Made by a program: the position numbers and the translations under genes. Below are positions 4,894-20,643 of a stretch of DNA of 64,000 nt, piece after piece. This DNA comes from Suicoccus acidiformans. GTDB taxonomy: Bacteria > Bacillota > Bacilli > Lactobacillales > Aerococcaceae. The stretch lies in assembly GCF_003546865.1 (NCBI RefSeq), contig NZ_CP023434.1:310001-374000 (forward strand), read 5' to 3'. The notes below the pieces were generated by a model. It had not been told where the DNA came from and did no database searches. It saw nothing but the letters and a program-made list of their open reading frames with translations. Every line of letters begins with the position of its first letter. Positions within the stretch are counted from its first letter, which is position 1.

Positions 4894-6402
4894 ATGTCAG
4901 CTCAAACGGACGGAACGCAAATGAAGCCGGACCGTCGTAAGACACTACAAAGTGTTAATGAATCAGGAGGACTTTTTGCCATTTGGAATCATCCGAATGC
5001 GCATCAGATAACGTACTTTGGCTTGCATGCCTTGCAGCATCGTGGGCAAACGAGTGTAGGGCTGGTCAGTTATGACGACGGTGAGTTTCATGGCTTGCAC
5101 GGCAACGGCTTGTTGACGCAAGTATTTAATCGACCAGAGAAATTGGAACGCCTGATAGGACGTCATGCGATTGGCCAAGTTAGATCAGCTACGCAGGCAG
5201 ACCGGGAGGACAATACGAATATTCAACCCCTGGTCTTTCATTTCAGTAATCAGACGATGGTGATTACCCATAATGGAAATATTACCAATGGACTTACCTT
5301 GCGTGAGCAGTTGGAGGCAGAAGGAGCGGTCTTATCGTCGAATTCTGCGGCAGAGTTACTAATTCATCTAATGCGACGCAAACCGGCGGAAGACTTTGAA
5401 GCAGCGTTCAAAGCGAGCTTGCGTGAACTACGGGGCGGCTTTAATTTCTGCTTATTGACAGAGTCTGGCTTGTACGGAGCGGTTGACCGCAACAGTTTCC
5501 GTCCATTGGTGCTAGGTCAGATGGCCAATGGAAGCTATCTCTTAGCAAGTGAGACGTGTGCTCTTCATACCATTGGGGCGAAATTTGTGACCGAAATTTT
5601 TGCCGGTCAGTATGTGGTGATTAATGATGAAGGATACCGGATTGGCGTATATGTTGAGGATACGCAAATTACGATTGAGCCGATGGAGTATATTTATTTC
5701 GCCAGACCAGATTCGGATATTGCAGGGGTGAATGTCCATAGTGCCCGTAAGGAGATGGGGCGGCGCTTGGCCTTGGAGCAGCCAGCACCGACAGCTGATT
5801 TAGTTATTGGTGTGCCGAATTCTTCCCTATCCGCTGCGAGTGGTTATGCCGAAGCGTCTGGTTTGCCTTATGAAATTGGTTTGATTAAGCATCAATATGT
5901 GGGCCGGACCTTTATTCAGCCAACTCAGGAATTGCGGGAGCAAGGGGTGCGCAGTAAATTATCCGTTGTGGTGAATTTAGTGCGTGACAAATCAGTTGTA
6001 CTTGTAGATGATTCCATTGTTCGTGGAACAACGATTCGCCGTCTGGCACAATTATTAAAGGAGAGTGGGGCGCGCGAGATTCATTTGCGAATCGCTAGTC
6101 CACCTTTAAGATTCCCGAATTTCTATGGCATCGATGTGTCGCATACGTCAGAAATGATTGCAGCAAATTATACCGTTAAAGAGTTGAACGAATTGTTCGG
6201 CAGTGATAGCCTGGGTTATTTATCTGTACAAGGTTTGATTGATAGCGTAGGCTTGCCAATTGAAAATGAGACGGGGGGCTTGAGTTTAGATGCCTTCACA
6301 GGAGCGTATCCTGCCGATATTGCGGATTGTCGTGAGTCTCTTGAAGCATCCCTTACCCCCCTCCAAGAAAAAATACGAAAAGGAGCCAGTTGCGATGAGT
6401 AA
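4894..6402 (+). CDS. purF: Amidophosphoribosyltransferase with inactivated glutaminase domain
   Basis: First committed step of purine synthesis: PRPP plus a nitrogen donor gives phosphoribosylamine. The N-terminal Ntn-type glutaminase domain (about residues 22-250) aligns well with the family ([19 protein letters not shown]), and the C-terminal phosphoribosyltransferase domain keeps the PRPP loop [13 protein letters not shown]. The catalytic N-terminal Cys, normally exposed by propeptide cleavage in the context NEECGVFGIWGH, is absent: here the sequence is [12 protein letters not shown], with Gly25 in its place. The glutamine-binding Asp (SSDTE in relatives) is Ala152. The four Fe-S cysteines of B. 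subtilis PurF are also missing. Glutamine use therefore seems impossible, while ammonia-dependent activity is plausible. Ribosome binding site AAAGGAGGG. The 3' end overlaps purM by 8 bases. Confidence 0.95.
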
Positions 6403-7423
6403 TGCTTATGAAGCGTCAGGCGTAAACATTCAAAAAGGCTATGAAGCCGTGGAGCGCATGAAGAAACATGTGGCTAAAACCCAAAGATCTGAGGTATTGA
6501 ATCAGTTAGGAAGTTTTGGTGCTTTATTCAGTCTTTCCGGAGAGTACGAAGAGCCTGTGTTGGTAAGTGGAACAGATGGGGTTGGGACGAAATTAATCAT
6601 CGCTCAACAAACCGGTCAATTAGATACGATTGGTATTGATGCGGTGGCAATGTGTGCGAATGATATCTTAGCCCAAGGGGCTGAGCCTTTATTCTTCTTA
6701 GATTACTTAGCTGTTGGTCAGAATGATCCAGAGAAGATTGAAGCGATTGTTGCGGGTGTCGCTGAAGGGTGTGTTCAAGCAGGGGCAGCCTTAATTGGCG
6801 GCGAAACGGCAGAAATGCCTGATATGTACGCAGCAGATGAATTTGATATAGCAGGCTTTTGCGTGGGAATTGTCGAAAAAGCGCAAATACTGGATGGTAG
6901 CCAAGTCGAAGATGGCGATGTGTTAATTGGCTTACCAAGTACGGGTGTGCATTCGAATGGCTTCTCTCTAGTGCGCAAGTTGTTCTTCAAAGACCATGAC
7001 TGGTCACTAGAAGACACCTTGGCTGACGGGCAAACCTTAGCGCAACATTTGTTAGCCCCGACCAAAATTTATGTTAAAGATGTCCTGCCTTTAGTACAAG
7101 CTCAACAAGTACACGGAATTGCTCATATTACGGGCGGTGGCTTCTATGAGAACGTCCCTCGGATGTTTAACGCAGACTTAACAGCAGTGATTGATGCGAC
7201 AGCGTGGGAGCGTCCGGTTATTTTCGACCAGTTGAAAGAATTGGGCAATTTAAGTGATGAAGAGATGTTCAATGTCTTCAATATGGGTATTGGAATGGTC
7301 TTAGCGGTTGCACCCGCTGAGGTTGAGGCGATTTTAGCCGCTTGCCCTGGCAGTGTCCAAATTGGACAGATGGAAGCAGGCGACGCACCTAGCGTCCGCT
7401 TAGAATATTTGGAGGGAGCATAA
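6395..7423 (+). CDS. purM: Phosphoribosylformylglycinamidine cyclo-ligase (AIR synthetase)
   Basis: Closes the imidazole ring by converting FGAM to AIR with ATP; cytosolic. The chosen start ATG 6395 gives 342 residues ([22 protein letters not shown]), the normal length and N-terminus. A longer frame reaches back into purF but has no support. The signatures GTDGVGTKL and [11 protein letters not shown] are present. The ribosome binding site AAAGGAG at 6379-6385 lies within the purF end, and the genes overlap by 8 bases, so they are probably translationally coupled. Confidence 0.96.
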
Positions 7424-7425
7424 TC

Positions 7426-8001
7426 ATGCGGTTAGCGCTGTTTGCTTCCGGAAGTGGAAGCAATGTGCAAGCAATCATCGATGCAGTCCAAGCCGGTAAG
7501 CTTAATGTAGAATTGGTTGCCTTATTCTGTGACCAAGCGGGTGCCCGAGTCATTGAACGGGCTGAGCAGGCAGGTATTGATACCCTTGTCTTGGCACCGC
7601 AAGACTGTCCAAGTCGACAAGCTTGGGAGGAAGCGATTGTTGCTTTTCTCAAAGAACGAAAGGTCGAACTGATTGTGCTGGCAGGTTTTATGCGAATCTT
7701 AGGTGAACCTTTGTTAGAAGCCTATCCCGAAGCGATTGTAAATATCCATCCGTCATTATTACCAGCCTTTCCTGGCCGTCAAGGTATTCAAGATGCCTAT
7801 GAAGCAGGAGTCGCTGAGACGGGTGTGACAATTCACTGGGTCGATGCGGGGATTGATACAGGCGAGATTATTGTTCAGGAGAAGGTTAGGATTGAAGCGG
7901 ACTGGTCACTTGACGATTTAGCTCAAGCAATTCATCAAGTGGAACACCGCCTTTACCCAGCGACACTCCAAGAAATTATCGAAGAAAGAAGAGAGGATTA
8001 A
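7426..8001 (+). CDS. purN: Phosphoribosylglycinamide formyltransferase
   Basis: Transfers a formyl group from 10-formyl-THF to GAR. Its 191 residues are normal. It shows the N-terminal ASGSGSNVQAI phosphate-binding loop, the catalytic segment NIHPSLLPAFPG (Asn and His) and the Asp in HWVDAGIDTGEII. It begins 2 bases after the purM stop, with GGAGGGAGCATAATC as ribosome binding region. All catalytic residues I can check are present. Confidence 0.96.
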   Translation: MRLALFASGSGSNVQAIIDAVQAGKLNVELVALFCDQAGARVIERAEQAGIDTLVLAPQDCPSRQAWEEAIVAFLKERKVELIVLAGFMRILGEPLLEAYPEAIVNIHPSLLPAFPGRQGIQDAYEAGVAETGVTIHWVDAGIDTGEIIVQEKVRIEADWSLDDLAQAIHQVEHRLYPATLQEIIEERRED

Positions 8002-8007
8002 GCTGAC

Positions 8008-9597
8008 ATGAAGAAAACGGCTCTATTAAGTGTGTCTGATAAGACAGGGATTATTGAATTGGCTCAGGTTTTAGTAGATCAAGGGATTGCTTTGTTATCC
8101 ACTGGTGGAACCTATGAAGCAATTAAAGCCGCTGGAATACCTGTGGAGACGGTGGACGCTTATACAGGTTTCCCGGAGATGATGGATGGTCGGGTAAAGA
8201 CCTTGCATCCGAAAGTTCATGGTGGCATCCTTGCCTTGCGGGATAATTCAGAACATCAAGCAGCTGTCCAAGCCCATGATATTCGCTGGATTGATTATGT
8301 TATCGTTAACTTGTATCCCTTTAAAGAAACGATTAGCCAGAAGGACGTAAGTTTAGAAACCGCTATTGAGAATATCGATATTGGTGGGCCAACTTTGTTA
8401 AGAAGTGCTGCGAAGAATTACCGCTTTGTAACTGTCGTTACCGATCCACGCGACTATGGGCGTTTGGAGGCAGAACTTAAAGCTGAAGGCGAGACCAGTC
8501 CAGAATTCCGAGCTTATTTAGCGAAGAAAGTCTTTGAGTTGACCTCACACTATGACACATTAATTGCCGATTACTTAAGCCAAGCAGCAGTTCAAGCCAA
8601 TGAAGCTGACCAAGCTTGGGAACATATCACTTTAACCTATGATCAGAAAGAAACCTTGCGCTACGGTGAGAATAGTCACCAAGCCGCAAGTTTCTACAAG
8701 GCAGTGAATCTACCAGCCTTCTCAATTGCAGCTGCCGAGCAGCATCATGGCAAGCAACTATCTTATAACAATTTAAAAGATGCTAATGCTGCCTTACAAA
8801 TTGCCGGAGAATTTGATGAGCCAGTTGCGGTAGCGGTGAAGCATATGAACCCATGCGGGGTTGGTCTGGGTGAGACAATTGAAGAAGCCTTTGATCGTTG
8901 CTATCAAGCTGATTCGATTTCGATTTTTGGTGGGATCGTCGTTGTAAACCGTCCAGTGACAGCAGCTTTAGCAGAGACTTTAGCAGGGATTTTCTTAGAG
9001 ATTATTATCGCCCCAAGTTTTGAAGAGGCGGCGATGGAACGTTTGACCAAGAAGAAGAACTTGCGCTTATTAACCGTTGACTTTAATAAGCGTCAGGAAC
9101 AACCGAAAGAAGAATTTGTGTCGATTCCTGGGGGCTTACTTGTTCAAGATACGGATCGCTCAGAGGAATTACCTCAGGAAGCAATTACGGCTCTACCAGA
9201 CGCATGGGAAGTTGCAACGGAGCGTGCCCCGGAAGCCAGTGAAGTGAAGGCAATGAATTTCGCAATGAAAATCGTCAAACACGTGAAAAGTAATGCCATT
9301 GTCGTAGCAAATGAATATATGACCCTTGGTGTGGGAGCGGGCCAAATGAACCGGGTCGGTTCAGCCGAAATCGCTCTAGACCAAGCTGCCGAAAAAGACG
9401 CCAGTTTACGGGAGACCTTCGTTATGGCTAGTGATGCCTTCTTCCCTATGGATGATACCGTCACCTTAGCACATGAGCGGGGGGTTACGGCGGTTATTCA
9501 ACCGGGAGGTTCAATTCGTGACGAGGATAGTGTGAAAGTATGTAATGATAAAGGAATGGCCATGGTTATGACCAACGTGCGCCACTTCCGCCACTAG
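8008..9597 (+). CDS. purH: Bifunctional AICAR transformylase / IMP cyclohydrolase
   Basis: Carries out the last two steps to IMP. The N-terminal MGS-like cyclohydrolase domain (about residues 1-200) has SVSDKTGIIELAQ, LLSTGGTYEAI and GRVKTLHPKVHGGILA. The C-terminal transformylase domain has LRYGENSHQ and the catalytic KHMNPCG. At 529 residues it is slightly longer than usual. It starts 6 bases after purN, with AGAGAGGA upstream, and its end is closely followed by purD. Confidence 0.96.
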   Translation: MKKTALLSVSDKTGIIELAQVLVDQGIALLSTGGTYEAIKAAGIPVETVDAYTGFPEMMDGRVKTLHPKVHGGILALRDNSEHQAAVQAHDIRWIDYVIVNLYPFKETISQKDVSLETAIENIDIGGPTLLRSAAKNYRFVTVVTDPRDYGRLEAELKAEGETSPEFRAYLAKKVFELTSHYDTLIADYLSQAAVQANEADQAWEHITLTYDQKETLRYGENSHQAASFYKAVNLPAFSIAAAEQHHGKQLSYNNLKDANAALQIAGEFDEPVAVAVKHMNPCGVGLGETIEEAFDRCYQADSISIFGGIVVVNRPVTAALAETLAGIFLEIIIAPSFEEAAMERLTKKKNLRLLTVDFNKRQEQPKEEFVSIPGGLLVQDTDRSEELPQEAITALPDAWEVATERAPEASEVKAMNFAMKIVKHVKSNAIVVANEYMTLGVGAGQMNRVGSAEIALDQAAEKDASLRETFVMASDAFFPMDDTVTLAHERGVTAVIQPGGSIRDEDSVKVCNDKGMAMVMTNVRHFRH

Positions 9598-9608
9598 GAG
9601 GGTTACCA

Positions 9609-10871
9609 TTGGAAAAAGTACTCATCGTCGGCTCAGGAGGCCGTGAGCATGCTCTAGCGCGTGCCTTTAGTCAAAGTCCGCAAGTTAGCACTGTATTCGT
9701 TGCTCCAGGTAATGCTGGTATGGTGTTTGACAAGATTCAAACCGTTGCCTTAGCCATGGATGATAGCGACGCTTTACTTTCATTTGCCCAAGAAGAAGGA
9801 ATTGCACTAACCTTTGTCGGTGCAGAGCGACCCCTTGAGGCTGGCCTGGTGGATGCCTTTCGTGCAGCTGGCCAAGCGATTGTGGGACCGACCAAATACG
9901 CCAGTCAATTGGAGTCATCGAAAGCCTTTGCTAAGGAAGTTATGCACGCGGCTCAAGTGCCCACATCTTCCTATGAATATTTCAATGCAGGTGATATGGA
10001 AGCAGCGTGGGCCTATTTGGAAGGCAAGGGCTTGCCGGCTGTTATTAAAATCGACGGCTTGTATGCTGGTAAAGGGGTAGTAATTCCTGAAAGCATGGCC
10101 GAAGCTCAGGCAACCTTGGAGCGCTTCCTAGTGGAGGAGAAATTACCGGTTATTATCGAAGACTTTATGGTAGGTCCAGAGTTTTCTTACTTCACTTTAA
10201 TCAACGGAACTTCAGTTATCCCAGTCGGGAGTGCCTGTGATTATAAGCGGGTGAGTGACAATGACCAAGGTTTGAATACTGGCGGTATGGGAGCTTTCTC
10301 TCCGGTACCTTGGTTTGATGAAGCCATGGAGACAGAAGTCTTGGATACGATTGTTCGTCCAGTTGCTGAAGAGATGGTGCGTCGCGGCGAACCATTTACC
10401 GGCGTATTATACAGTGGCTTAATGTTGACGGCAGAGGGGCTGAAGGTTGTCGAGTTTAATACACGTTTCGGTGATCCTGAGACACAAATTCTTTTGCCAC
10501 GGATTCAAGATGATTTCTATGATTTAATTCAAGCGCATTTAGCAGCGGAAGCTTATGAGGTAAACCTCAGTCCTGAAACCCACTTGGGCATTATTGTTGC
10601 CGCTGAAGGTTATCCGGAAGCTTATGCCAAAGGGATGCCAATCCGCTTTACTCAAGCAGCCAAGATGGAAGATATCTATTTCGCTGGGGTTCAAGCAGAG
10701 GAGAGTGGGACGGATCTAGTGGCTAATGGCGGTCGCATATTGATGGTGACGGCTGAAGGCGCGAATTTATCTAAGGCCCGTCAAGCCGCTTACGCACAAG
10801 TGGATCAAGTAAACTTACCGCAAAGTTTCTACCGTTCAGATATTGGTTTACACCGGGAAAGGAGCAATTAA
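9609..10871 (+). CDS. purD: Phosphoribosylamine-glycine ligase (GAR synthetase)
   Basis: An ATP-grasp enzyme that joins phosphoribosylamine, the PurF product, to glycine. The 420-residue length is normal. It opens [16 protein letters not shown], with [13 protein letters not shown] and [12 protein letters not shown] in the ATP-grasp core. The start is TTG 9609, set by the adjacent ribosome binding site AGGAGGG at the purH stop; no ATG or GTG fits the family N-terminus. Its 3' end supplies the ribosome binding site for purE. Confidence 0.95.
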
Positions 10872-10872
10872 A

Positions 10873-11370
10873 TTGACGAACCAGGCAGATGTCGCAGTAG
10901 TCATGGGAAGCACCTCCGATTGGGAGCAAATGCAAGGAGCTTGCGAGCTCTTAGACCAGTTAGGGGTGAGCTATACGAAAGCAGTTGTTTCTGCTCACCG
11001 TATGCCGGATGAGATGTTCAGCTTTGCTGAGGGTGCTCGTGACGCAGGCTATAAGGTGATTATTGCCGGAGCCGGGGGAGCAGCCCACTTACCGGGCATG
11101 ATTGCGGCTAAGACGACCTTGCCAGTGATTGGCGTGCCGATGAAGTCAAGTAACTTAAGCGGCATGGATTCCCTGTTATCCATCGTTCAAATGCCGGCAG
11201 GTGTGCCGGTCGCCACGATGGCTATTGGCCAAGCCGGCGCGAAGAATGCGGGCTTAATGGCAGCGCGAATTTTAAGCATTGAGAATGCCGAAGTGGCGGC
11301 TAACTTAGCCGAATACCGGGACAATGCCCGTCAAGCAGCCCAAGAAAGTAGTGAAACGCTCTATGACTAA
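10873..11370 (+). CDS. purE: N5-carboxyaminoimidazole ribonucleotide mutase
   Basis: A class I PurE that converts N5-CAIR made by PurK to CAIR. I place the start at TTG 10873, giving 165 residues ([19 protein letters not shown]), because GGAAAGGAGC sits just upstream and the family begins there; the frame extends ten codons further back inside purD. The catalytic region SAHRMPDEM and the [10 protein letters not shown] loop are present. It overlaps purK by 8 bases. Confidence 0.95.
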
Positions 11371-12508
11371 AACTTTACTACCAGGCGCTACGATTGGCAT
11401 CATTGGAGCAGGCCAACTAGGCAAGATGCTAGCCCAAGCTGCTCAGAAAATGGGCTATCGGATAGCCATGTACGATCCTAATCCTGATTCCTGTGGCTTT
11501 GGCGTAGCGCACGCCCATACGGTAGGGGATTTTAATGACCGGGATGCCTTGCTAGCTTTTGCCAAAGATGTGGACGTATTAACCTATGAATTCGAGAATA
11601 TCAATGGGGAACTATTGAAAGAACTGGAGCAAGTAGCTTACCTACCTCAAGGAAGTAAACTTCTCCTCGTTTCCCAAAACCGCTTGCGCGAGAAGACTTG
11701 GCTTAACGAAATCGGCTGTCCAACGGCAGCTTTTTGTGAAGTAAGTAGTCCAGAGGATTTGCAGGCTGCCCTAGCTAACTTCGGTTATCCAGCGATTCTA
11801 AAGACGAACCGCTTTGGCTATGATGGCAAGGGCCAGTATTTACTCAAAGCAGCTGAGGATATTGATGGGGTACCTTTCACCGATGATACGGATTATATTC
11901 TGGAAGCTTTCGTTCAGTTTACCTATGAAGCCTCGGTAATGGTGAGTCGCAGTATTGATGGTAGAATTGAATTCTTCCCGATTACTAAGAATCAGCATCG
12001 CCAAGGTATTCTCTACAGTAGCCTTGCGGGCTCAGAGGTAAGTGCAGATGTTATTGCCAAGATGCACGACGCTGCTAAGCGCCTGGCTGAAGCCGGCGAA
12101 TTGGTTGGTGTTTGTGGCGTTGAGTTCTTCATTGATGAAGCGGGCGGGGTAATGGTTAATGAAATTGCTCCCCGACCGCATAACAGTGGCCATTACAGTA
12201 TTGAAGCTTGTAATGTCTCGCAATATGACCAACATATTCTGGCAATTGCGGGTCGCTCAATCGTGCCTGTGCAACTGATGGAGCGGGCTTTAATGATTAA
12301 CATACTAGGCCAGCATATGGCAGACTTGCCGGAAGTATTTAGCCACTATCCGGAAGCAATGGTTCATATTTATGATAAAGGAGAAGCCAAAGCCCAACGC
12401 AAGATGGGCCACTTCACCTTATTAAGCCAGGGGCCAAAGCATTTAGAAGACATATTGGCAGAATCAGACTTCTTAAAAGCCTGGGAGGCGAAATTTGACC
12501 AAGTTTAA
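11363..12508 (+). CDS. purK: N5-carboxyaminoimidazole ribonucleotide synthase
   Basis: An ATP-grasp enzyme that makes N5-CAIR from AIR, bicarbonate and ATP. The start ATG 11363 gives 381 residues, with the nucleotide-fold opening [17 protein letters not shown]. The ATP-grasp motifs [11 protein letters not shown] and [13 protein letters not shown] are clear. No strong ribosome binding site precedes it, so expression probably depends on coupling to purE through the 8-base overlap. It is the last gene of the first purine block; a 266-base gap follows before purC. Confidence 0.95.
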
Positions 12509-12774: not shown

Positions 12775-13461
12775 ATGGAATTAATCTACACAGGTAAAAC
12801 CAAAAATGTTTACCGCAATGATGCAGGGCAAACAGTCCTGGAATTTAAAGACGATGTCACCGGAGAAGATGGGAAATTCGATCCGGGCGCGAATCAAGTA
12901 GGCTTATCGATTGAAGGCGTTGGCCAAAAGAACCTCGGCATGTCTGCGTATTTCTTTGAGAAGTTGAATACTGAAGGCATTCTCACCCACTATATTTCAA
13001 GTGATTTAGACGGCAACTTTATGACCGTACGCGATGCACAAATCTTTGGCAAAGGCCTGGAAGTTATTACACGCTACCGTGCAGTAGGCTCTTTCTATCG
13101 CCGTTTCGGTGATTATATTGAAGAAGGTGCACCGCTAGATACTTACATGGAAGTTACCTTGAAAGACGATGAGCGTGGCGATCCCTTTATTAGTCAAGAT
13201 GCCTTAGACCAACTGGGCATCTTGTCTAAGGAGGACTATGAGACTTTGGAAAGCTTGAACGCTCAAATTGCTGACTTTATTCAGGCAGAGTTGGCCACTA
13301 AGGGCTTAGAGTTGTATGACTTGAAGTTAGAATTTGGCTTAGAGCAAGAGATGGGGCAAATTATGCTCATTGACGAGATTTCAGGCGGGAACATGCGGGT
13401 GTTTAAAGGCGACGAGAGCATTGAGCCTTTAGCATTAGCGGCGTACTTTATAGAAGGATAA
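12775..13461 (+). CDS. purC: SAICAR synthetase
   Basis: Condenses CAIR with aspartate using ATP. Its 228 residues are near the family length. It opens ELIYTGKTKNVYRN and shows RYRAVGSFYRRFG and LIDEISGGNMRV, matching the substrate and ATP-binding regions. The ribosome binding site AAAGGAGAC is strong. It lies 13 bases from purL and after the structured gap, so purCL may have some independent expression. purB, needed for the next reaction, is not in the window. Confidence 0.95.
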   Translation: MELIYTGKTKNVYRNDAGQTVLEFKDDVTGEDGKFDPGANQVGLSIEGVGQKNLGMSAYFFEKLNTEGILTHYISSDLDGNFMTVRDAQIFGKGLEVITRYRAVGSFYRRFGDYIEEGAPLDTYMEVTLKDDERGDPFISQDALDQLGILSKEDYETLESLNAQIADFIQAELATKGLELYDLKLEFGLEQEMGQIMLIDEISGGNMRVFKGDESIEPLALAAYFIEG

Positions 13462-13474
13462 AAGGAGGAAACCC

Positions 13475-16400
13475 ATGAGTCAATTTATCGTTGTGCTGAA
13501 AGGTGCATCAGCATTTCTTTTGAAAGAAGCACATAACTTTTTGAACTTGACGAATATCTCACAAATTACGGAATATCACGTCTTTGAATTTGAAGGTGGC
13601 GATGGGGCAGTCGTTGCTGAGGAATTATTTGACACGTATGAATTAGTGGATACTTTAGAGGCTTACGACACTCTAGAGAGCTTCCGCTACCGTCAAGTGT
13701 TAGGCCAATACGATGAAGTGTCTGAGATGACTAACCGCTTCGTCAGCAATATCTATGGCTATGATATGACCTTGCATCACTCTAATATCGTACGTCTTGA
13801 AGGTGCTTCTGAAGCTGATATGGCAGTCTTCAAAGACTACTTTATTAATGAAACCGAAAGTGAACTGGTTGACTTTGGTGCCTTGTCTTATGATATGGGT
13901 GTTTCTAGCGGGAAAGATTTACGTCAAGTTGAGGGCTTTATCGATTTCGATGAGAGTCAATTAGCTAAATTGCTCGAAGAGTATTCAATGGATATGAGCG
14001 ATATTCGCGTTGTTCAAGAATATTTCCGTGAGGAAGGCGTTGACCCGACAATCTTCCAATTGAAGATGATCGATACCTATTGGTCTGATCACTGCCGCCA
14101 TACAACCTTCTTAACAGAACTTAGCCAAATTGAAGTAGAAGATGGCCACTATAAAGAAGCGATTCTTACCGCTTTAGAAGAATACAATGCTGTACGCAGT
14201 GAAGTTTACGGCGAGCGTGAAAAGAAAGTAAGCTTAATGGATATGGCTACTATCAATGCTAAATATGCTAAGAAATTAGGCCTGTTGACGAATGTGGATG
14301 AATCTGACGAAGTGAACGCTTGCTGTATCAATATTAAAGTTGATGTGGACGGCGAAGAAGAAGATTACTTGTTGTACTTCAAGAATGAAACGCATAACCA
14401 CCCAACTGAGATTGAACCATTTGGCGGCGCAGCGACATGTATTGGTGGGGGAATTCGTGACCCTCTATCTGGACGTAGCTACGTGCATCAAGCTTTGAGA
14501 ATTACCGGGGCAGCGGATCCTACGAAAGCTTACGATGAAACCTTACCGAACAAATTACCTCAACGGGTTATTACCCAACGGGCAGCTGAAGGTTACAGTG
14601 ATTATGGCAACCAAATTGGCCAATCAGCTGGTTTCGTACAAGAGTTTTACCATCCAGGCTTTGAAGCCAAGCGTATGGAATTAGGGGCTTTAGTTGCCGC
14701 AGCGCCTAAGAGCTATGTCATTCGTAAAGACTCTGAACCTGGTGATAAAATCATCCTACTTGGTGGTCGCACTGGCCGTGACGGACTCGGGGCAGCGGTA
14801 GGTTCCTCTAAAGTTCAAACAGATAAATCGATGGAACTCCAAGGTGCGGAAGTACAGAAAGGAAATCCTGCGATTGAACGTAAGATTATCCGTTTATTCC
14901 GTCAAAGCGAGGCTACGCGTTTAATTAAGAAATGTAATGACTTTGGCGCCGGTGGGGTATCTGTAGCCATCGGTGAATTAGCAGATGGTCTGACGATTGA
15001 ATTGGATAAAGTGCCACAGAAATATGCAGGCATGGATCCAAGTGAAATCGCCCTATCTGAATCACAAGAGCGGATGGCCGTTGTTCTTGATGCGCAAGAT
15101 GTAGATGCCTTTGTTGCTTTAGCTGAAGCGGAAGATTTGGAAGCATCCATCGTTGCAGAAGTGACCGACTCACCGTACATGGTGATGACTTATGAGGGTG
15201 AAGAAGTACTGCGTTTGAAACGGGCATTCTTAGATTCTAACGGTGGTGCCAAAGAAACAATTGCTAATATCCAAGCAAGCAGTATTGCAGCTCATTATGA
15301 AGAAGATCGCTCTATTGAGCAGCAATTAACGGATATTCGCTATACAAGCCAAAGCGCCCTCGGCCAAAACTTTGACTTCTCCATCGGTAAAGGAACGGTG
15401 CTCGCTCCATTTGGTGGCGCAAGTCGTCTAACGACTCAAGAAGGAATGGTTGCTAAGATTCCTACTTTAGGTCATGAAACCGAAACCGTATCAGTTATGG
15501 CTGGTTCTTTCTTGCCGGATGTAGCTAGCGCCTCACCATTCCACGGTGCTTACTATGCTGTGTTGAATTCTGTCGCTAAGGCAGTAGCCTTAGGTGTGCC
15601 TTACCAAGAAGCTCGTTTAACCATGCAAGAATTCTTTGAATCAACAGAGACTCCTGAGAAGTGGGGTAAACCTGCTGGAGCCTTACTTGGAGCCTTTAAA
15701 GCGATGAAGCAACTAGGCTTAGGTGCTATTGGTGGGAAAGACAGTATGAGTGGTACGTATGAGGACTTAACGGTCCCACCTTCTGTCATTAGCTTTGCAG
15801 TGGCTGCGACTAAAGTGGATGCTGTAAACTCTCGTGAATTAAAAGCCACTGATTCAAAAGTTATCTTATTAGAAGTGGAACGCTTGGCAGACGATACCTT
15901 TGATGAAGCGGCTATGAAGGCTATGTTTGAACAAGTGACAGCCTTAATCGAAGCAGGTCAAGTGCGGGCTATTTCGACCTTAAATGAGAAGACGGTTGAA
16001 TTAAACTTAGTGGAAATGGCCCTAGGTAACCATATTGCCTTTGAAATGGAGCCAGAATTTGTCGGCCATAAAGGTGCTCTAGGCTTCTTAATTGAAGTAG
16101 CAAGCGACACTGACCTTGAAGGAGCTGTTGTGGTAGCAAAGACATGTGAAGGTTCCCAAGTCCAAATCGATCAAGCATACGACTTAGCTGATTTAGCTGA
16201 TGTGTATACGAAGCCACTTGCAGATGTCTTCACCGAAATTGAATTTCAAGCAGTTCAAGAGGTTAAAGCCCCACTTGCACCAGCTGAAGGCTTTACGTCT
16301 GACGTAAAGGTCTTAATTCCCGTGATGAACGGTGTAAATGGTGAGTATGATCTGTACGAAAGCTTTAAGCAATACACACCAAATGTTGATTTCTTCATTA

Positions 16401-17008
16401 TTAAAGAAGAATTGGCTTATCAAGCATCGATTGATGAATTGAAAGCACGTTTGGCTGACTATGATATTCTTGCTTTCCCTGATGGATCTATTCTGTCTAA
16501 CCGTATGCATTATGGTCAAGCAATTGCCCGCGTTATTCAAGACATGCAAGCAGAAATCGAAGCCTTTATCCAAGATAAGTACGTTCTTGCAATCGGTGCG
16601 TCGATGGCCGGCTTTGTTCGCAGTGGTCTTATAGAATTTGGCAAAGTCCAAGCAGGTACCCACTTAACTTACCGCGAGAATCCATACGGCAAATTTATCT
16701 CTGCGATTGTTCCAGCCAATGTTCATCAAACAACTGCCTTTGCTGAAGAAGGTAGCTACACCACTGCCCTTGCTTCATATACCTTAACTCTAGAAGCAGA
16801 TATGGCCAAAGTTGGTGAGCAAGTGCTTTCTACTTATGCTCATTACTTTGAAGACGTCCAAGCGATTGATGCTATGACAGATCCAAGTGGTCATATTCTT
16901 GGCGTCAATGCTAACTTTGAACGTTTCGGCCAAGGTCTATTGAAGAATATCGAAACTCACGAAGCGCCATTTGTAGCGAACATCGTACGTTTGGCTGAAG
17001 GAAACTAA
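13475..17008 (+). CDS. purL: Single-chain FGAM synthase with degenerate glutaminase domain
   Basis: Converts FGAR to FGAM. Its 1177 residues make it the large fused form, so no purS or purQ is needed. The synthetase halves look intact: YWSDHCRHTTF (about residue 205) and HNHPTEIEPFGG (about 307). The C-terminal class I glutaminase-like domain (about 945-1177) keeps the fold pattern but not the active site. The nucleophile motif, GICNG in relatives, reads AIGAS with Gly1041 in place of Cys. The MPHPER motif reads NANFER with Asn1147 in place of His, and Glu1149 remains. No Cys occurs anywhere in this domain. Ammonia-dependent synthesis is the likely mode. Ribosome binding site AAAGGAGGAA. The last gene of the operon, followed by a terminator. 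Confidence 0.93.
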   Translation: MSQFIVVLKGASAFLLKEAHNFLNLTNISQITEYHVFEFEGGDGAVVAEELFDTYELVDTLEAYDTLESFRYRQVLGQYDEVSEMTNRFVSNIYGYDMTLHHSNIVRLEGASEADMAVFKDYFINETESELVDFGALSYDMGVSSGKDLRQVEGFIDFDESQLAKLLEEYSMDMSDIRVVQEYFREEGVDPTIFQLKMIDTYWSDHCRHTTFLTELSQIEVEDGHYKEAILTALEEYNAVRSEVYGEREKKVSLMDMATINAKYAKKLGLLTNVDESDEVNACCINIKVDVDGEEEDYLLYFKNETHNHPTEIEPFGGAATCIGGGIRDPLSGRSYVHQALRITGAADPTKAYDETLPNKLPQRVITQRAAEGYSDYGNQIGQSAGFVQEFYHPGFEAKRMELGALVAAAPKSYVIRKDSEPGDKIILLGGRTGRDGLGAAVGSSKVQTDKSMELQGAEVQKGNPAIERKIIRLFRQSEATRLIKKCNDFGAGGVSVAIGELADGLTIELDKVPQKYAGMDPSEIALSESQERMAVVLDAQDVDAFVALAEAEDLEASIVAEVTDSPYMVMTYEGEEVLRLKRAFLDSNGGAKETIANIQASSIAAHYEEDRSIEQQLTDIRYTSQSALGQNFDFSIGKGTVLAPFGGASRLTTQEGMVAKIPTLGHETETVSVMAGSFLPDVASASPFHGAYYAVLNSVAKAVALGVPYQEARLTMQEFFESTETPEKWGKPAGALLGAFKAMKQLGLGAIGGKDSMSGTYEDLTVPPSVISFAVAATKVDAVNSRELKATDSKVILLEVERLADDTFDEAAMKAMFEQVTALIEAGQVRAISTLNEKTVELNLVEMALGNHIAFEMEPEFVGHKGALGFLIEVASDTDLEGAVVVAKTCEGSQVQIDQAYDLADLADVYTKPLADVFTEIEFQAVQEVKAPLAPAEGFTSDVKVLIPVMNGVNGEYDLYESFKQYTPNVDFFIIKEELAYQASIDELKARLADYDILAFPDGSILSNRMHYGQAIARVIQDMQAEIEAFIQDKYVLAIGASMAGFVRSGLIEFGKVQAGTHLTYRENPYGKFISAIVPANVHQTTAFAEEGSYTTALASYTLTLEADMAKVGEQVLSTYAHYFEDVQAIDAMTDPSGHILGVNANFERFGQGLLKNIETHEAPFVANIVRLAEGN

Positions 17009-19050: not shown

Positions 19051-19987
19051 ATGAAGCGAATTGTTGTAGCACTGGGGTGGGAATGCTATTCTGACTGATG
19101 ATTCAACAGCACAAGGGCAAAAGGCTGCCTTAAGTCGTACGGCGCAGTATTTGGTCGAGTTTGTGAAGCAAGGCTACCAGATTATTATTAGCCACGGAAA
19201 TGGTCCCCAAGTAGGAAATGTACTGCTGCAACAAGCCGCAGCCGATTCACCTAAAAACCCAGCCATGCCTTTGGATACTTGTGTTGCCATGACCCAAGGC
19301 AGTATTGGCTACTGGTTACAAAATGAACTGCAAAAAGCGCTGAAAGAAGCGAAGATAGACCAACAGGTCGTCAGCTTAGTGACGCAAATCGTTGTCGACG
19401 CCAATGACCCAGCTTTTGATGAACCAACGAAACCCATTGGACCCTTCCTAACCCAAGAACAGGCCGCTTCAGAAGCTGCGGAAACGGGCCATATCTTTAA
19501 AGAAGACGCGGGCCGGGGCTACCGCCGTGTCGCTCCTTCACCGAAGCCACAAGATATTCTTGAGGCTGATGTTATTCGTACGCTTTTAGATAACAACTGC
19601 ATCGTCATTGCTGCTGGTGGCGGTGGCGTGCCAGTAGTAGCATCAGGTCAAGCCTATGAAGGGATTGAAGCGGTTATTGATAAGGATTTCGCGTCTGCCA
19701 AACTAGCTGAACTTGTTGAAGCTGACTCCTTAATTATTCTAACCGGTGTAGATCATGCTTATCTCGATTTCAATCAGCCGAATCAAACGGCCTTGAATGA
19801 CGTTACAGTAGCGCAAATGCGGGAATATATTTCAGCCGGAGAATTTGCCCCGGGCAGCATGCTGCCGAAAGTTGAAGCCTCGATTCAATTTGTTGAACAG
19901 ACAGAGGGTGCCCCTGCGGTAATCACTTCCCTTGATAATATTGAAAACTACCTCCACTATGGCACAGCGACCATTATCCGTCGTTAA
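19051..19987 (+). pseudogene. arcC: Carbamate kinase, frameshifted near the 5' end
   Basis: Carbamate kinase reversibly transfers phosphate between carbamoyl phosphate and ADP, releasing carbamate that breaks down to ammonia and CO2. ATG 19051 has a good ribosome binding site (GGGAGGG), and its frame reads KRIVVALG before reaching a stop at 19096. Removing one G from the GGGG at 19074-19077 restores [21 protein letters not shown], joined to the long open frame [10 protein letters not shown] ... to 19987. The body is otherwise complete, so this is a one-base insertion: a true mutation, a switchable tract or a sequencing error. The distal frame has a GTG at 19151, but that would omit the nucleotide-binding N-terminus. 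No other arginine deiminase genes lie nearby. Confidence 0.85.
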
Positions 19988-20046: not shown

Positions 20047-20643
20047 TTAGACTTTACCTTCACGCACAATTTGCTCGCAGAAATTGCTTAGAATCCCTTG
20101 GGCAAGGGTATCTTCTTTAACGTTGAGTTCAAACTGGACGCCGTAAATTTTCTGAGCTTTATTCTCAATGGCACCGTATGGCCGATTTGGGCCGTTGGCG
20201 ACTACTACAAAGTCTTCCGGTAACTTAGATACTGCTGCATCGTAACCTAATTGAACTTCGTATTGATTCATGAGTCCTTTAAAAAGGCCAGACTCTAAGT
20301 TATGGACAGTCAGTTGTGCAGGACTAGGTTCGTGCACCTCACCGACAGGTGTTACTGTGCCACCGAGGATATGAATCATGGCTTGCATCCCACGGCCAGT
20401 TGCGAGAATTGGCAAGTTTAGTTTTTTAAATAAATTTGGGTCAATTTGATCGATATCGTCCGGGTAGACCGTTTCGTATCCTCCAAGTAAGACAACCGCC
20501 TGAGCTTCGGCATCCGCCAGAATGGATGCGGCTGTATAGCCTCGCTCTACTGTCTCTACCTGATAACCTGTCTGCTTAATATAGTCGACGATGTCACTTA
20601 AATACTGATTCCCAAAGTCTAGTACATAGATTTTATCCGCCAT
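20047..20643 (-). CDS. Stand-alone GuaA-type glutamine amidotransferase domain lacking catalytic residues
   Basis: The 198 residues align along their whole length with the N-terminal glutaminase domain of GMP synthetase: KIYVLDFGNQY at the start, IDPNLFKKLNLPIL, GMQAMIHILGG, YGAIEN and IYGVQF. There is no ATP pyrophosphatase domain. The active site is gone: the nucleophile motif ICYGMQ reads TGRGMQ with Gly83 in place of Cys, and FHPEV reads FELNV with Glu172 for His and Asn174 for Glu. It may bind a separate GuaA synthetase chain as a structural or GMP-sensing subunit, or have a new role. The ribosome binding site AAAGGAG precedes ATG 20643. Monocistronic, converging on arcC. Confidence 0.85.
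   Translation of the reverse strand: MADKIYVLDFGNQYLSDIVDYIKQTGYQVETVERGYTAASILADAEAQAVVLLGGYETVYPDDIDQIDPNLFKKLNLPILATGRGMQAMIHILGGTVTPVGEVHEPSPAQLTVHNLESGLFKGLMNQYEVQLGYDAAVSKLPEDFVVVANGPNRPYGAIENKAQKIYGVQFELNVKEDTLAQGILSNFCEQIVREGKV

Follow-up and report, generated by a model that had tools for sequence, protein, structure and literature searches.

Paired loss of the glutaminase cysteine from PurL and PurF in a bacterial purine operon, with free ammonia as the probable nitrogen donor

Purine synthesis takes two ring nitrogens from glutamine through the enzymes PurF and PurL. Replacement of Cys1 by Ala or Ser in Escherichia coli PurF abolishes glutamine use and leaves ammonia use in place, and archaeal PurF' is naturally Cys-less, an ammonia-dependent activity having been proposed for it in 2011 as a possibility only (PMC3261824). 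The single-domain form of NadE is held to use free ammonia in vivo, and glutamine use varies by lineage (PMC3376133). Here, we describe a purine operon in a 64,000-nucleotide stretch of Suicoccus acidiformans DNA (the window; positions 310001-374000 of contig C1 in genome G000, which is one contig of 2,572,159 bases, or 2.57 Mb) whose purL and purF genes both encode a glutaminase domain without the nucleophilic Cys. PurL and PurF of this operon are very probably ammonia-dependent versions of normally glutamine-dependent enzymes, and purine synthesis would proceed on free ammonia.

Glutaminase and synthetase sites of PurL and PurF

The purL gene (13475..17008, + strand) encodes a homologue of the long-form formylglycinamidine ribonucleotide (FGAM) synthase, as identified by TIGR01857 and by an AlphaFold2 model compared with Salmonella PurL (StPurL; 1t3t). 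It is a single open frame of 1177 residues without an internal stop. The class-I glutaminase domain is retained at residues 944-1177 (16304..17005, +; PF13507 match at residues 944-1086), with its nucleophile and His lost. The nucleophile elbow at residues 1039-1043 reads AIGAS and places Gly1041 (codon GGT, 16595..16597, +) where Cys is expected. The MPHPER-type motif at residues 1145-1150 reads NANFER, in which Asn1147 (16913..16915, +) replaces the catalytic His and Glu1149 is present as the only remaining member of the class-I Cys-His-Glu triad. The oxyanion loop reads FPDGS, and no Cys occurs in residues 942-1177. The synthetase motifs YWSDHCRHTTF and HNHPTEIEPFGG are both present, and the domain order and fold are those of the long form (1t3t match over model residues 1-1175). 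The readings of the elbow, the MPHPER-type motif and the oxyanion loop, the lack of Cys in the last 230 residues, the open frame and the intact synthetase part had been given in a first-pass annotation of the window and are borne out. PurL narrowly misses the TIGR01857 cut-off (1048.5 versus 1057.05 bits), and a Cys-less PurL from Miniphocaeibacter exceeds it with 1393.8 bits; thus, this family model does not separate live (Cys-bearing) from dead (Cys-less) PurL.

The residue changes were placed in a wider setting by comparing alignment columns across 101 PurLs, 51 Cys-less and 50 Cys-bearing. The set combines the full-length long PurLs of 20 among 60 related genomes (G000 included), 12 PurLs from named genomes (three Cys-less ones and nine of 77 live ones, the latter chosen for a readable PurF) and 69 of 70 loci read in the order of Miniphocaeibacter, L295 being dropped as the same gene as L094. 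That order was represented by 150 genomes, 142 of them with a match, and the 70 loci consist of the 30 best-scoring and 40 hand-picked ones; this sampling is not random, and prevalence cannot be derived from the counts. The nucleophile column, which carries Cys in 50/50 Cys-bearing PurLs, is Gly in all 51 Cys-less PurLs. The His column holds His in 50/50 Cys-bearing and in 1/51 Cys-less PurLs, and of the 51 Cys-less PurLs 16 have Glu and 35 have Asp in the Glu column. Arg1150 (16922..16924, +), adjacent to the Glu, is Arg in 101/101 PurLs and aligns with StPurL Arg1263, which lies at the ammonia exit of the Salmonella enzyme. In the synthetase part (residues 160-900), 184 columns are common to at least 96% of Cys-bearing PurLs, and 151 of them are kept in at least 90% of Cys-less PurLs; in residues 946-1165, only nine of 62 such columns are kept. 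The columns fixed among Cys-less PurLs include Gly1041, Arg1150 and Asn1158. These triad and column changes, taken with the invariant Arg1150, indicate that the glutamine side of the PurL domain is gone and that the ammonia-exit residue is retained. Judged by its residues, the window PurL should act as an FGAM synthase and not as a glutamine-hydrolysing member of its family, the loss of glutaminase function being near-certain. Chance, a frame error, a sequencing error or a local mutation can be ruled out, given that the frames are open and the same Cys-to-Gly change is found in 51 loci.

The first gene of the operon carries a comparable change. The purF gene (4894..6402, +) encodes an amidophosphoribosyltransferase homologue that belongs to TIGR01134 (398.7 bits, cut-off 350) and retains the phosphoribosyl pyrophosphate-binding motif of its phosphoribosyltransferase (PRTase) domain; one PurF was found in G000. 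The window PurF carries ESGGLFAIW, in alignment with EECGVFGIW of relatives. In the alignment with Bacillus subtilis PurF 1ao0, residue 26 falls opposite chain residue 2, which places Gly25 (codon GGA, 4966..4968, +) on residue 1, the mature Cys. The N-terminal nucleophile is absent, the first Cys of the protein being residue 186. The Arg of RYST and the Asn of HNGN are glutamine-site residues of class-II glutaminases, and the RYST segment reads RSAT in the window. The C-terminal Cys residues of B. subtilis PurF serve an iron-sulfur cluster; they are missing from the window PurF as well (NCGQCLACF in B. subtilis, TGGLSLDAF here), and the cluster is therefore probably absent.

A third Cys-less glutaminase lies downstream on the opposite strand. 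This stand-alone GuaA-type domain (20047..20643, -; TIGR00888 109 bits, below the 172.15 cut-off) reads ATGRGMQ in place of G[IV]CYGMQ. Its best match outside G000 is the Cys-less GuaA of a related genome, G021 (44%, against 34% for the GuaA of G000 itself). No GuaA synthetase part is found in the open reading frames (ORFs) listed around it.

Distribution, coupling and ancestry of the paired loss

Among the 20 related genomes with a long PurL, the nucleophile is gone in 14 and GICNG is read in six. A Cys-less PurF accompanies the Cys-less PurL in 14/14 of these loci, in five as the long ESGG type of the window and in nine as a shorter MSG type, in which Ser replaces Cys1 and the Asn of HNGN is lost too. 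One scan of named genomes gave, among the matches listed, 80 long PurLs, 77 of which carry G[IV]CNGFQ; members of the window's family were not among these matches. The three exceptions come from Miniphocaeibacter massiliensis (L094), a Tepidimicrobium metagenome-assembled genome (MAG; L095) and a Clostridiaceae MAG (L131), and each has a Cys-less PurF in the same locus (3/3). Miniphocaeibacter and Tepidimicrobium belong to the Tissierellales in the NCBI taxonomy. The 51 Cys-less members of the 101-PurL set come from two groups, the family of the window and the Miniphocaeibacter order. The defect that the first-pass annotation saw in PurL is thus real but wider than described there: it extends to PurF and to the stand-alone GuaA-type domain, and is both of old standing and widely distributed.

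A readable PurF was available for 88 of the 101 loci. By Cys alone, both nucleophiles are absent in 44 loci, only that of PurL in six and only that of PurF in two, and both are present in 36; one of the two PurF-only cases, L335, is a PurF fragment that was counted as Cys-less and as not intact. When the PurF site is defined by Cys, the Arg of RYST and the Asn of HNGN, it is broken in 50/50 loci with Cys-less PurL and intact in 33/38 loci with Cys-bearing PurL, the five others being L335, L119, L347, L349 and L357. All six PurFs that keep their Cys beside a Cys-less PurL have Asp for the Asn of HNGN. The association between PurL and PurF has a Fisher p of 3e-19, in a count that ignores the kinship of the rows.

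Other arrangements were met in the same scans. A deep PurF-like family that starts with MG[GA]FFG, without Cys, lies near a Cys-bearing purL in 8/80 named loci among the matches listed (L115, L141, L142, L151, L159, L162, L163 and L168), and the PurF motif of L140 is DECGIMG. In L325-L332, a Cys-bearing PurL lies within open frames of about 1640-1650 residues, the genomes measuring 1.3-2.1 Mb; of these frames L325 was read, and its N-terminal part is PurD-like by inspection.

On a tree of the synthetase columns, 50/51 Cys-less PurLs fall in one clade with a Shimodaira-Hasegawa-like approximate likelihood ratio test (SH-aLRT) support of 99, and the 14 Cys-less PurLs of the window's family form a single group inside it (97.1), adjoining L094 and L131; the PurL trees are quick ones with SH-aLRT support only, and carry long-branch warnings (L131, L341 and long branches that meet among the live rows). 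Members of the window's family with a Cys-bearing PurL are placed elsewhere. A 42-row tree gives the same picture once its row L096 is discounted as a wrong ORF, a row that is absent from the 101-PurL set and the larger tree. One Cys-less clade with the window-family group inside it points to a single old origin, and we infer that purL entered the window's family by gene transfer. A sister clade contains intermediates: L349 combines a live PurL with a Cys-to-Gly change in PurF, and L347 a live PurL with changed Arg and Asn in PurF. In the same clade, L350 shows a fresh Cys-to-Gly change in PurL with the His kept, a separate second PurL loss.

The PurF tree tells of a different ancestry. On the PRTase columns, with the Cys-less PurF paralogs L115, L141 and L159 (three of the MG[GA]FFG family) as outgroup, Cys-less PurF has at least two origins, a single origin being recovered in 0/200 bootstrap trees. 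L094, L095 and L131 also carry the MSG type; the ESGG type of the window clade and genome G005 lies inside ordinary Lactobacillales-type PurF. Two PurF origins imply that the native PurF of the window's clade lost its Cys independently, beside a PurL of the Cys-less kind. Of the arguments for a common cause behind the two losses, this pairing of independent events is the strongest.

Ammonia as nitrogen source and competing explanations

What supplies the nitrogen once the nucleophile is gone? Its absence leaves neither PurL nor PurF a thioester route from glutamine, and both enzymes would take free ammonia from solution in vivo. The first-pass annotation already suggested that PurL joins a dead glutaminase domain to an intact synthetase and probably draws on free ammonia, which fits the sequence results. 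We propose that life in ammonia-rich surroundings may have removed the need for glutamine at the PurF and PurL steps. The Tissierellales ferment amino acids and release ammonia. Candidate sources also lie near the purine genes: arcC, for a carbamate kinase (19151..19987, +; TIGR00746 379.2 bits, over the cut-off), lies 2.1 kb downstream of the window purL, its true start probably being further upstream because the ORF begins at profile position 35, and in G021 a ureG that exceeds its cut-off and a ureE-like gene that stays below the cut-offs lie about 5 kb upstream of purC. The link of these genes to the purine enzymes is circumstantial.

Alternatively, a separate glutaminase or another ammonia-making partner might dock on PurL and PurF and feed them ammonia in trans, for which the retained glutaminase domain could offer a docking surface. 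G000 does keep GlnA and a few other class-I glutaminase-like proteins. A PF00117 search of this one-contig genome gave four matches, namely GuaA, the Cys-less stand-alone domain, a PuuD-type hydrolase-like protein and a DJ-1/PfpI-type-like protein (the last two by inspection), none of them PurQ-like; no search was aimed at glutaminases of other folds, nor was the dedicated PurQ model PF13507 run there. PF00117 does detect the true PurQ of G005 (24.4 bits), and the separate intact purQ that the first-pass annotation named as contrary evidence was thus not found in G000 with this model. By inspection, the purine loci of seven relatives (those listed among 13 fetched loci) share no extra gene, and the only extra domain near purL, at 20047-20643, is itself Cys-less. 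A trans-acting partner is therefore unlikely.

Why, then, has the dead domain been retained? Of five pairs of Cys-less PurLs, three have a usable dS and two are saturated. In those three, the ratio of nonsynonymous to synonymous substitution (dN/dS, NG86) comes to 0.097, 0.040 and 0.040 for the glutaminase domain and to 0.063, 0.057 and 0.079 for the synthetase part; live PurL glutaminase domains give 0.089 and 0.032. The Cys-less PurF glutaminase domain gives 0.052, 0.100, 0.059 and 0.025 (4/4 pairs). The dead glutaminase domains are under purifying selection. The structure overlay on Salmonella PurL that had been suggested as a check agrees: the AlphaFold2 model of the window PurL, built with 32 relatives (mean predicted local distance difference test score 80.7, predicted template-modelling score 0.88; very low confidence at residues 1099-1120 and 1122-1125), matches 1t3t over residues 1-1175 (Z 31.3, root-mean-square deviation 3.3, 1063 aligned residues, 17% identity) and the human enzyme 9nb3 (Z 33.0, root-mean-square deviation 3.3, 1086 aligned). 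A phmmer search gave no credible PDB relative for the Cys-less domain alone, although the whole PurL model does match. As modelled, the PurL glutaminase domain is a full-length, folded and maintained part of the enzyme, not debris.

Such strong purifying selection, along with the fixed columns Gly1041, Arg1150 and Asn1158, might also reflect a new function of the dead PurL domain, such as that of a sensor closing PurL on binding glutamine or a nucleotide, beside or in place of a structural role. We consider this very improbable: the glutamine-side residues vary among Cys-less PurLs, and Arg1150 and Asn1158 are kept equally in live PurLs and so point to fold and interface. Instead, the domain may serve the ammonia-dependent enzyme as a structural lid, perhaps as a gate around the invariant Arg1150, a shell that would keep the synthetase in shape. 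Decay of an operon no longer used for de novo purine synthesis, which the loss of catalytic residues at two steps might suggest, is the least likely explanation of all, because the genes of the operon have open frames and fit their families, dN/dS is far below 1 in both the PurL and the PurF domain, and the same state recurs in 51 loci of two groups.

How far does the loss reach beyond the purine operon? The GuaA (GVCYGMQ) and GlmS (MCGIVG) of G000 keep their Cys, on which ground the idea that this organism has lost every glutaminase was rejected. CTP synthase (PF06418) was not found in this one-contig genome, nor in 9/28 other genomes searched, and cytidine triphosphate (CTP) may come from cytidine salvage or something else; a CarA-like match did not appear in the PF00117 search of G000 either. 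With GuaA and GlmS intact and neither CTP synthase nor a CarA-like match found, the loss in G000 is confined, among the glutaminases that can be read, to the purine operon and the extra domain. Among related genomes, GuaA was read in 35 and in G047, and is Cys-less in G021 (GIGRGMQ), G002 (GIGTGMQ) and G047 (AIGYGLE), with Cys in the other 33. PyrG, found in 19/29 genomes, lacks the Cys in these three as well (GISLGIQ, GLGLGMQ and GIGLGMQ). GlmS is full length in 22/29 genomes, with an N-terminal MCG in 22/22, and was not found in G001, G002, G003, G021, G022, G032 and G047; GlnA was found in 25/29 and not in G001, G002, G021 and G047. The G002 and G021 assemblies are drafts in fragments, with a completeness of 97 and 95%, so that single absences from them are weak and the residue changes are not weakened. 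Across 21 named genomes, no GlnA came up in Miniphocaeibacter, Tepidimicrobium or two live-PurL MAGs, and one was found in the L131 genome. PurQ, read in ten short-PurL genomes, has its Cys in nine, the other being that of G047 (GIGNGFQ). G047 (L048, L089, L267 and L274), a 1.4-Mb genome from another family of the order, is a parallel case in which PurQ, GuaA and PyrG lack Cys, GlnA was not found, and PurF keeps its Cys with SYTL for RYST.

Cells living in ammonia may abandon glutamine stepwise, first at PurF and PurL, then at the nucleophiles of GuaA and PyrG with the domains staying as shells, then by losing GlmS and finally glutamine synthetase, a scenario to which we give about even odds. 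On this scenario, genus g3 (G002 and G021) as well as the distant G047 would have gone almost the whole way, and G000 part of it. GuaA or PyrG were met in only three purine loci, none of them with a Cys-less PurL.

Several observations weigh against the use of free ammonia by PurF and PurL or against its tie to the paired loss. G000 has GlnA as well as a GuaA and a GlmS in which the Cys is retained, so this cell should still make and use glutamine. The absence of GlnA is not significantly tied to Cys-less PurL (5/17 versus 3/32, Fisher p 0.11; G005 left out, and G047 counted as live for its short PurL though its PurQ is Cys-less). The coupling is not strict, since a changed PurF site stands beside a live PurL in L349, L347, L119 and L357. 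In G005, an ESGG-type Cys-less PurF accompanies a Cys-bearing PurQ (GACNGFQ), so the Cys-less PurQ predicted for this genome was not borne out. Besides its Cys-less pair, the G016 genome, which is 9% contaminated, carries a further PurF together with a short PurL on a different contig. Because the rows are related and offer only two independent pairs, the link between PurL and PurF allows no powerful phylogenetic test. Finally, the ammonia sources named above are candidates only.

The operon and its relation to known systems

The operon is ordered purF-purM-purN-purH-purD-purE-purK-purC-purL, with purL last, by profile matches and, for purC, by inspection. Between purF and purL, all on the + strand, lie purM (6290..7423, TIGR00878; its true start is probably downstream because the profile match begins at residue 39), purN (7426..8001, TIGR00639), purH (8008..9597, TIGR00355), purD (9609..10871, TIGR00877), purE (10843..11370, TIGR01162), purK (11324..12508, TIGR01161) and purC (12775..13461), the last assigned from its sequence and operon position with no family within the 1e-60 limit. 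No Rfam match reached its gathering score in the window.

Natural PurF-PurL pairs, in places along with GuaA and PyrG, thus seem to have been switched off glutamine; should the ammonia explanation be true, the effects on cell physiology would be unusual. Is free ammonia sufficient for nucleotide synthesis, what does a glutaminase domain contribute without catalysis, and which habitats permit such a life? These pairs allow the questions to be asked. They also matter for annotation, in which domain and family models assign these proteins a glutamine hydrolysis that they probably cannot perform. Among the matches listed from open-licence PMC papers, no report described a Cys-less PurL or a joint loss of glutamine use by PurF and PurL.

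The window PurL has the domain order, synthetase motifs, fold and ammonia-exit Arg of Salmonella PurL (1t3t, TIGR01857). It differs from the Salmonella-type long form in lacking the glutaminase Cys and His, and the Cys-less PurLs keep 9/62 conserved glutaminase columns. Similarly, the window PurF aligns with B. subtilis PurF 1ao0 over chain residues 2-449 and has the PRTase motif in common with it, but has Gly for Cys1, and the MSG type has Ser at that position and has also lost the Asn of HNGN. Archaeal PurF' resembles the window PurF in being Cys-less (PMC3261824). However, PurF' sits beside a Cys-bearing PurF, and the Cys of PurL/PurQ is described as fully conserved (PMC3261824), whereas G000 has one PurF and its PurL is Cys-less too. 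NadE offers a likeness of another kind, as an amide-transfer enzyme without a glutaminase active site in its chain (PMC3376133); by sequence, the window PurL and PurF have none either. Single-domain NadE lacks any glutaminase domain (PMC3376133), whereas the window enzymes keep the domain and only its active site is gone.

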